DNA of 64,000 bases from assembly GCF_020097835.1 (NCBI RefSeq), contig NZ_CP083666.1, positions 2,790,001-2,854,000 of the forward strand, read 5' to 3'. Below the pieces are notes generated by a model. The model ran no database searches. It was not told where the DNA came from and was given only the letters and a program-made list of their open reading frames with translations. Of this stretch, positions 37,713 through 41,665 are shown one piece after another. A program made the translations under genes and the position numbers. This stretch comes from Haloprofundus halobius (lineage in GTDB: Archaea > Halobacteriota > Halobacteria > Halobacteriales > Haloferacaceae). How positions within the stretch are numbered: the first letter of the stretch is position 1; every line of letters begins with the position of its first letter.

Positions 37713-37735
37713 CATTCACGCACCGAAGATCGAAA

Positions 37736-37908
37736 CCTAACTTGTTGGGTGGCCGATTTTAGTGGACGTAGCAACTATCAGTAAATGCGAAACGCGACGC
37801 GCCGGACTCGACCCCAGTTCGCGTGCCAACGAACGTAGCCATACCATGCAGTCCCGGTGCACCGCGTTCGACGAGGTATTGCCCTCGTTTCCCCCATCCT
37901 CGACACTA
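37736..37908 (+). repeat. triplicated ncRNA-like element, copy A
   Basis: Begins CCTAACTTGTTGGG, then TTTTAGTGG, GCGAAACGCG, GACGCGCCGGAC, then the conserved stem-loop GTTCG-CGTGCCAA-CGAAC (37817-37834) and the block CCATGCAGTCCCGGTGCACC followed by GCGTTCGACGAGG and CCCCATCCT. Indels relative to the other copies are not multiples of three, and the reading frame of the QFACQRT text in copies B and C meets a stop here, so coding is unlikely. Confidence 0.6.
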
Positions 37909-37988
37909 CACCCCCGAGCGACGCATCTCCACGTCGTACTCCAGTTCTCACCGGGAGCGTCGAGTCCGTCCGACGAACGGCGGGCGTA

Positions 37989-38162
37989 CCTAATTTGTCT
38001 GGCAGAGATGTTTAGTGGATAGGGGGAGTATCGTTGTATGCGAACACGGACACCCCGGACTCAACACAGTTCGCGTGCCAACGAACGTGCCAAAGCCATG
38101 CACCCGGACGCGCCGTGTTTGGCGAGGATTCCGTCCTCCCCATTCTGAAGTCGTTACGCGAG
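37989..38162 (+). repeat. triplicated ncRNA-like element, copy B
   Basis: Diverged copy: CCTAATTTGTCTGG, TTTAGTGGATAG, TGCGAACACGGACACCCCGG, the same stem-loop GTTCG-CGTGCCAA-CGAAC (38069-38086), then AAGCCATGCACCCGGACGCG and TGTTTGGCGAGGATTCCGTC. Both arms of the stem-loop are identical to the other copies although flanks have drifted. Confidence 0.6.
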
Positions 38163-38359
38163 AAGCGACGCGTACCCGGTTCGTCGCCGCTCGCAGCGGA
38201 TACGACGGGCGCGACGAAGGATAACGACGGACGCGACGAAGAGTGACGACTCGTGCGACGAGGGGCGTGACGATGCGCCACCTGCTCCGTGGGGCGGTCC
38301 GTCACGTCGCGTGTTCTGACTCTCAGTTACGAGTTACTGTCTCCGTTTCCGAGCGGAAG

Positions 38360-38540
38360 CCTAACATGTTTGGGAGAGTAGTTTAGTGGGTAGAGATGTA
38401 AGTAGTAAATGCGAAACGCGGAGACGCGCCGGACCTGAATCACAGTTCGCGTGCCAACGAACTAGCCAAGCCATGCAGTCCCGGTGCACCGCGTTCGGCG
38501 AGGAATCGTCCTCGTACCCCCCATCCTTACGCGACTACCC
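38360..38540 (+). repeat. triplicated ncRNA-like element, copy C
   Basis: Copy closest to A: CCTAACATGTTTGGG, GTTTAGTGGGTAGAG, TGCGAAACGCGGAGACGCGC, the stem-loop GTTCG-CGTGCCAA-CGAAC (38445-38462), then CCATGCAGTCCCGGTGCACC, GCGTTCGGCGAGGAATCGTC and CCCCCCATCCTTACGCGA. A GC-rich hairpin follows directly. Confidence 0.6.
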
Positions 38541-41023: not shown

Positions 41024-41665
41024 TTACGGTTCGATAAGTACTCGCCGGACCAGATTGCGGTAGCCGCGGCGGAGACGGTCGGCGACCGCCTGGCGACTGA
41101 TACCGAACTCCTCGGCCAACGAATCGAGCGACGCCTCTCGCGGAACGTCGAAGTACCCCCGATGGAACGCGAGCAGGAGCGTCTCTCGCTGCGCGTCGGT
41201 GAGTCCCTCGGACTTCGTTTGCTCTCCGCGGAGTCGCCGCAACTGTCGGAGTTCGAGCTGAATCTCGTGGCTCTCGCAGTAGGCTTGAAACGCCGAGAGG
41301 CAGTCTCGCGTGGGCACTCGGCACTTGAACGTCCACCCGTCGGCCGTGCCCGTCGCGCTGAGAAGCGCGATGTCGAGTCGGGCGAAACCCGCGAGAACCT
41401 CGTCGCCGACGGCGGTCCACCGACTCTGAAACAGCGTTCCCCCGTCGTCGTCGCCGAGGACGTGGACGCTCTCGAAGGCGTCGTGGTTGGCGAGCACGTC
41501 GACGACGAGGTCCTCGTCGGCACCGCTGACTCGGAAGTAGGGAAAGACGTCCGGTCCCGTCGGAATGACGCGAACGAGTTCGATTCTCACGTCGGACGCC
41601 GCCGAGAGAATCGGATGGAAAGGAAGCGCCTCTGTCGGAAGCGAGAATTCGGCGTAGAGAGTCAT
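41024..41665 (-). CDS. Bat-type HTH transcriptional regulator
   Basis: A 213-residue regulator with a helix-turn-helix of the bacterio-opsin activator (HTH_10) type at about residues 155-208 (LTDAQRETLLLAFHRGYFDVPRE...LAEEFGISRQAVADRLRRG). The N-terminal part is the GAF/HTH-associated domain seen in this family. Target genes are unknown; neighbours are the HalOD1 protein and the AI-2E-type permease. A TATTTTG box lies about 37 bases upstream. Confidence 0.88.
   Translation of the reverse strand: MTLYAEFSLPTEALPFHPILSAASDVRIELVRVIPTGPDVFPYFRVSGADEDLVVDVLANHDAFESVHVLGDDDGGTLFQSRWTAVGDEVLAGFARLDIALLSATGTADGWTFKCRVPTRDCLSAFQAYCESHEIQLELRQLRRLRGEQTKSEGLTDAQRETLLLAFHRGYFDVPREASLDSLAEEFGISRQAVADRLRRGYRNLVRRVLIEP

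Follow-up and report, generated by a model that had tools for sequence, protein, structure and literature searches.

Three copies of one element beside a rhodanese gene

The window, as the analysed DNA is called here, is a 64,000-nucleotide stretch of the Haloprofundus halobius genome (contig NZ_CP083666.1). It carries, in order, a gene for a SpoIIM-domain membrane protein, three copies of a short element, a convergent rhodanese gene, a second rhodanese gene, a gene for a HalOD1 protein and a gene for a Bat/HTH_10 regulator. This gene order is found in 5/5 genomes of the genus. An earlier note on this DNA had described three diverged copies with a set of shared motifs, all of which were found where it had put them. 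The sequence CAGTTCGCGTGCCAACGAAC occurs with 0 mismatches at 37815, 38067 and 38443, where 0.05 chance matches are expected at ≤3 mismatches. Its 18-nt core has no fourth site in the 3.95-Mb genome, even with 2 mismatches. The suggestion of a dispersed repeat gives way to a single tandem locus per genome. Each copy would constitute an independent unit, comprising an activator palindrome, a TATA box, an RNA of ~110 nt and a terminator-like hairpin with a pyrimidine tract. The features are as follows, with the evidence for each in brackets.

37735..37749, + strand: copy 1 activator-like palindrome ACCTAACTTGTTGGG (15-copy promoter alignment, 22 nt from CCT to TATA)
37758..37765, + strand: copy 1 TATA-box candidate TTTAGTGG (identity 0.91 over 15 copies; 27 nt before the RNA start)
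37785..37895, + strand: copy 1 predicted sRNA (covariance model match, 108.7 bits)
37815..37834, + strand: copy 1 invariant P3 hairpin CAGTTCG-CGTGCCAA-CGAAC (conservation, fold)
37836..37850, + strand: copy 1 conserved single-stranded stretch TAGCCATACCATGCA (conservation)
37871..37888, + strand: copy 1 terminator-like hairpin P4, then pyrimidine tract (fold)
37988..38002, + strand: copy 2 activator-like palindrome ACCTAATTTGTCTGG (spacing, promoter alignment)
38011..38018, + strand: copy 2 TATA-box candidate TTTAGTGG (spacing, promoter alignment)
38038..38146, + strand: copy 2 predicted sRNA, AACACG/CGTGTT variant of P1 (covariance model, 86.5 bits; own clade 100/98)
38067..38086, + strand: copy 2 invariant P3 hairpin (conservation, fold)
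38087..38102, + strand: copy 2 conserved single-stranded stretch GTGCCAAAGCCATGCA (conservation)
38121..38139, + strand: copy 2 terminator-like hairpin P4 (fold)
38359..38373, + strand: copy 3 activator-like palindrome GCCTAACATGTTTGG (spacing, promoter alignment, genus pattern search)
38382..38389, + strand: copy 3 TATA-box candidate TTTAGTGG (spacing, promoter alignment)
38409..38522, + strand: copy 3 predicted sRNA (covariance model match, 115.2 bits)
38443..38462, + strand: copy 3 invariant P3 hairpin (conservation, fold)
38463..38477, + strand: copy 3 conserved single-stranded stretch TAGCCAAGCCATGCA (conservation)
38498..38515, + strand: copy 3 terminator-like hairpin P4 (fold)
41024..41665, - strand: Bat-domain + HTH_10 regulator gene, inferred candidate activator (Pfam BAT 3.1e-18, HTH_10 2.7e-18; adjacency in five genomes)

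A rigid promoter-like block precedes each predicted RNA

Because 15 copies exist across the genus, the promoter, RNA and terminator-like parts can be separated from sequence alone. The distance from the palindrome (CCT) to TTTAGT is exactly 22 nt in 15/15 copies and that from TTTAGT to the RNA start, (A)YGCG, exactly 27 nt, again in 15/15, giving a block without indels over 49 nt (22 + 27). Mean pairwise identity among the 15 copies is highest, at 0.91, in TTTAGTGG and reaches 0.75 in the palindrome (15 nt) and 0.74 from where the RNA starts; it falls to 0.41 in the 8-nt spacer and 0.44 in the 19 nt that follow TTTAGTGG, and further upstream it is 0.26, which is chance level. Since the spacing is fixed while the spacer bases drift, the block reads as a promoter. 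Haloarchaeal promoters carry a TATA box of the TTWT type (PMC4983044). The palindrome has the consensus RCCTAAYNTRTTNGG, followed by 8 bp and then TTTAGT in all 15 copies; single copies deviate from the consensus at 1-2 positions of the right half-site.

The elements had been thought to keep the same spacing over 170 bases, which is exact in the promoter, whereas 3' of ATGCG indels are frequent, RNA-like, and the distance from start to hairpin ranges from 29 to 35 nt. Likewise, the view of each copy as ncRNA-like throughout holds for the 3' part, while the first ~50 bases (CCTAAY-TTGT and TTTAGTGG), about one third of each copy, read as promoter. What appear to be a rhodopsin-type activator palindrome with its TATA box and a terminator-like 3' hairpin had been overlooked.

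Fold and conservation of the predicted RNA

The predicted fold has helices P1 to P4. P1 pairs AACGCG with CGCGTT, or AACACG with CGTGTT in every copy-2 member, and P2 pairs GCRCCGGAC with GTCCCGGTGC and is altered in copy 2. P3, formed by AGTTCG and CGAACT around the loop CGTGCCAA, is invariant in 15/15 copies. P4 (CGAGGC/GCCTCG) is followed by a pyrimidine tract and is terminator-like; the 3' tract is C/U-rich, with no clean U-run. The GCGAGG block listed in the earlier note is present, though as the 5' arm of this hairpin. A conserved single-stranded stretch, AGCCAAGCCATGCA, lies between P3 and the terminator-like hairpin. With the rigid palindrome/TATA block at one end and the hairpin with its pyrimidine tract at the other, each RNA has, by sequence, a candidate promoter and terminator of its own.

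Standard pairs fill 90.5% of pair cells in the model alignment, compared with 28-42% after shifting the partners by 1-3 columns; this alignment was fitted to the model, and a MAFFT alignment gives a nearly equal 90.0%. Both sides have changed at five pairs, including a G-C to A-U change in P1 across the whole copy-2 clade and changes in P4. The P1 change is probably a single event inherited by five sequences, and P3 yields no covariation because it is invariant. Overall, covariation is genuine though limited in extent. Folded singly, the sequences are no more stable than their shuffled versions (z -0.26 to -1.24). Conservation is highest in the loop of P3 and in the unpaired AGCCAAGCCATGCA; such a concentration in loop and single-stranded positions would be expected of interaction surfaces, for which both are candidates. 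The RNA fold is conserved without a conserved reading frame, as in a small RNA; selection on RNA structure rather than on protein, as proposed earlier, agrees with a fold that is kept despite indels.

Distribution, synteny and age

In a DNA search of 118 relatives, the four other genus genomes each had three copies, and no credible match appeared elsewhere. The covariance model R1 was built from the 15 copies (three each from five Haloprofundus-group genomes). In 391 genomes of the class it returned 15 matches, three per genus member, at E 3e-12 or better, and nothing outside the five genus members at E≤0.1. Such a search had been suggested in the earlier note; it yields homologues and modest compensatory change, all within one genus. 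A laxer R1 search of 40 genomes of the family gave only 24-27 bit matches in three genomes, which are probably chance. When 84,980 GTDB species were scanned with a pattern, in a set that may omit the window's own record, the triple turned up in Haloprofundus marisrubri. Five single pattern matches in unrelated bacteria were rejected as chance because they are lone copies of a loose pattern. Rfam 15 has 0 window matches at gathering score (best sub-threshold 11-15 bits, E 4-8), in line with the earlier statement that no named RNA family fits. Among the genomes searched, the RNA thus appears to be confined to Haloprofundus.

The order SpoIIM-rhodanese-rhodanese is also found in sister genera, where the gap after SpoIIM is short (from about 47 nt) or filled with unrelated sequence or ORFs. 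In that gap the covariance model, with filters off, reaches ≤17 bits, which is chance level, and inspection of the intergenic sequence revealed no copy. Because it holds unrelated sequence and ORFs in other genera, the SpoIIM-rhodanese gap appears to be a site prone to gaining new genes. Its contents at four loci of other genera include a CoA-binding-like ORF and pilin-like ORFs with threonine/valine-rich N-termini.

The tree of the 15 copies sorts by position: copy 2 forms one clade (100/98) and copy 3 another (90/97), and copy 1 is paraphyletic on weak branches. The copies are orthologous by position, and the triplication is therefore older than the species split of the genus. All three copies have been retained since then in five of five examined species. 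Each genome holds several paralogues, each with its own promoter block and a common conserved motif, as is found in sibling sRNA families.

A functional tie to the sulfurtransferase genes, also raised in the earlier note, is not borne out: the closest of these genes runs convergently, and in sister genera the sulfurtransferases occur without the RNA. A link of the RNAs to sulfur metabolism was rejected, with nothing but adjacency in its favor.

Likeness to rhodopsin promoters and a candidate activator

The activator consensus of the bacteriorhodopsin regulon, reportedly described by Baliga and DasSarma in 1999, is ACCcnactagTTnGG. As a test of this consensus, ACCYNACTAGTTNGG was sought in 292 haloarchaeal genomes and found at 34 sites, versus 10 for a reversed control. 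Three of the 34 sites precede a rhodopsin gene (PF01036, 3e-53 to 1e-67), each 56-57 nt ahead of a start codon. At these three genes, which come from other haloarchaea, a TTTA/TTTG element (TTTRNN) begins 14-16 bp past the palindrome centre; at the sRNAs it begins 16 bp past it. The activator sequence of the bop regulon (PMC1447603) is, like the palindrome described here, 15 nt long and imperfectly palindromic, with ACC and TTnGG at opposite ends, and is placed directly upstream of a non-standard TTTA-type TATA box at near-identical spacing. The two differ at the centre, which is ACTAG there and AAYNTR in the sRNA palindromes, and in what follows, since the bop-regulon sequence drives rhodopsin genes while the sRNA palindrome precedes predicted non-coding RNAs. 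The consensus of the 15 copies contains an ACC-N7-TTNGG palindrome a short way upstream of a TATA box, the arrangement of a Bat-regulon promoter, and none of the sRNA copies matches ACCYNACTAGTTNGG, with its exact UAS core ACTAG.

Across the genus, the pattern RCC-N2-A-N4-TTNGG-N8-TTTA occurs at 11 sites, 10 of them at sRNAs, and a reversed control gives 0. At the eleventh, in G004, 54 nt separate the site from the start codon downstream, which belongs to a gene for a secreted, subtilisin-like protein (family assigned by eye), and this distance lends independent support to an RNA start ~50 nt past the start of the palindrome. Another activator of comparable layout is GvpE, whose half-sites are AACCA..TGGTT. 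The GvpE element of gas-vesicle promoters (PMC4390858) has inverted half-sites 4 unimportant nt apart, lies by the BRE and depends critically on spacing; it differs in being 20 nt long with another half-site sequence, and GvpE is leucine-zipper-like.

A Bat-domain/HTH_10 gene lies 2.5 kb from the cassette in 5/5 genomes, with 76-83% identity. The best match to this regulator (41024-41665) in other genera has 39-42% identity, and orthologues are found in the genus only. Its adjacency can only suggest a link because the genome has at least 22 Bat/HTH_10-like matches. The gene is the natural candidate for the activator of the sRNA promoters. A rhodopsin gene is present in only one of the five genus genomes. 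No rhodopsin gene was found in G000, the genome with these at least 22 Bat/HTH_10 matches.

Proposed function and alternative readings

We moderately favor the explanation that the locus is a cassette of three sibling trans-acting sRNA genes switched on by a Bat-type regulator; an sRNA family, one of the identities offered in the earlier note, is the likely one. A dimer of a Bat/HTH_10 regulator, most likely the product of 41024-41665, would bind the palindrome, which lies just ahead of a weak TATA box, and recruit TBP/TFB. In the folded transcript a P1/P2 stem would present P3, the invariant hairpin with loop CGUGCCAA, along with the unpaired AGCCAAGCCAUGCA. These two invariant surfaces would be the working part, most likely pairing with target mRNAs in trans, and the three promoters could provide dosage and/or slightly differing inputs.

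The transcripts might instead bind a protein, serving as a sponge or RNP scaffold, with the loop CGUGCCAA and the GCCAA/CCAUGCA motifs as the points of contact. A search of the five genomes for extended complementarity to the conserved stretch gave fewer sites than the control, and antisense targets in the 18-kb neighbourhoods did not rise above shuffled queries. Protein binding is therefore a serious rival, and a protein contact that is sequence-specific is suggested by P3, which with its loop never varies in the 15 copies, not even in any of its five strict G-C/A-U pairs. The strictly conserved positions are largely unpaired, which fits antisense pairing too, and we know of no archaeal protein partner with a motif of the P3-loop kind; on balance we regard protein binding as doubtful.

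An element acting as DNA, whether a dispersed regulatory repeat, a recombination site or the end of a mobile element, would explain repeated copies with palindromic motifs and a cassette that is missing at the same site in sister genera. It is very unlikely given one fixed site with three position-orthologous copies, the lack of copies elsewhere in the genome and on plasmids, phages and viral contigs, and a fold and promoter/RNA boundary that suit transcription.

The reading of each copy as a leaderless gene for a small protein, with the ATG of ATGCGAAACGCG as start codon, is close to refuted. This ATG, 27 nt past the TATA box, sits where a leaderless start would be expected, and in Haloferax 72% of coding transcripts lack a leader (PMC4983044). 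It is, however, replaced by ACG or CTG in 5/15 copies, the frame from start to invariant hairpin takes all three values, and the predicted peptides stop after 9 to over 80 residues. A homologous protein in one frame across the copies, the outcome that would have spoken against an RNA, is absent, as start codon and frame are both unconserved.

Mimicry of tRNA-Leu through UAGCCAAGCC, a 10-nt stretch within 37836-37850 and 38463-38477 (copies 1/3-type RNAs) that equals the D-arm of tRNA-Leu(GAG) and tRNA-Leu(UAG) in all five genomes, is hardly credible: chance alone should yield ~0.3 or more shared 10-mers when ~110 nt are compared with every tRNA of a genome, the identity is interrupted in copy 2, the fold is not tRNA-like and ARAGORN finds 0 tRNA/tmRNA genes in the window.

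Known small-RNA systems and significance

The sRNA cassette would represent a new family of RNAs whose functional kind is known and whose promoter is unusual. The Haloferax volcanii sRNA132, found only in Haloferax, regulates phosphate genes (PMC6560208). Compared by description, and with no relation in sequence claimed, sRNA132 (~140 nt) and the predicted Haloprofundus RNAs are alike in being intergenic, haloarchaeal, restricted to one genus and located at a conserved site between two protein genes; sRNA132 has its own promoter, and each Haloprofundus copy a candidate one. sRNA132 is a single gene with two stems, a pyrimidine linker and a phosphate role, whereas Haloprofundus has three tandem paralogues with one long-stem/hairpin core. 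Similar in organization are Listeria LhrC1-5 and Neisseria NgncR_162/163 (PMC4211561), near-copies of one sRNA with conserved loop or single-stranded motifs and a common regulator site before each copy. These have bacterial promoters and regulators, known targets and no homology to the Haloprofundus RNAs.

Paralogous sRNA families with one promoter design are well known in bacteria, and a limited literature search found no archaeal case. It is possible, if speculative, that a genus-specific triplicated sRNA family is the main output of a Bat-type factor in mostly rhodopsin-less organisms, a light/oxygen-type module having been rewired onto regulatory RNAs. For the Bat/HTH_10 proteins, of which a haloarchaeal genome encodes tens, mostly unstudied, the locus would supply a concrete candidate for a DNA site and a target. 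With its three RNA genes and a single regulator nearby, the set is small and deletable, and lends itself to asking what turns archaeal sRNAs on, what lies behind their triplication and how an sRNA family is born in a conserved neighbourhood.

Other palindromes in the genus

At G004:C1:312921-312947 (L190), ACCTAACTGATTAGG, 8 bp and TTTA precede the gene for a seemingly secreted subtilisin-type protease, and a second Bat-type palindrome lies 4.5 kb from this layout, at 308351. A further perfect match, to CCTAAYNTRTTNGG, is found in L114 around 1501-1514 (G000:C1:777144-777157) and at the orthologous places in G001-G004. It has no TATA box at an sRNA-like distance. This site adjoins rtcB, just past a gene end, and is conserved with the nearby intergenic sequence in all five genomes.
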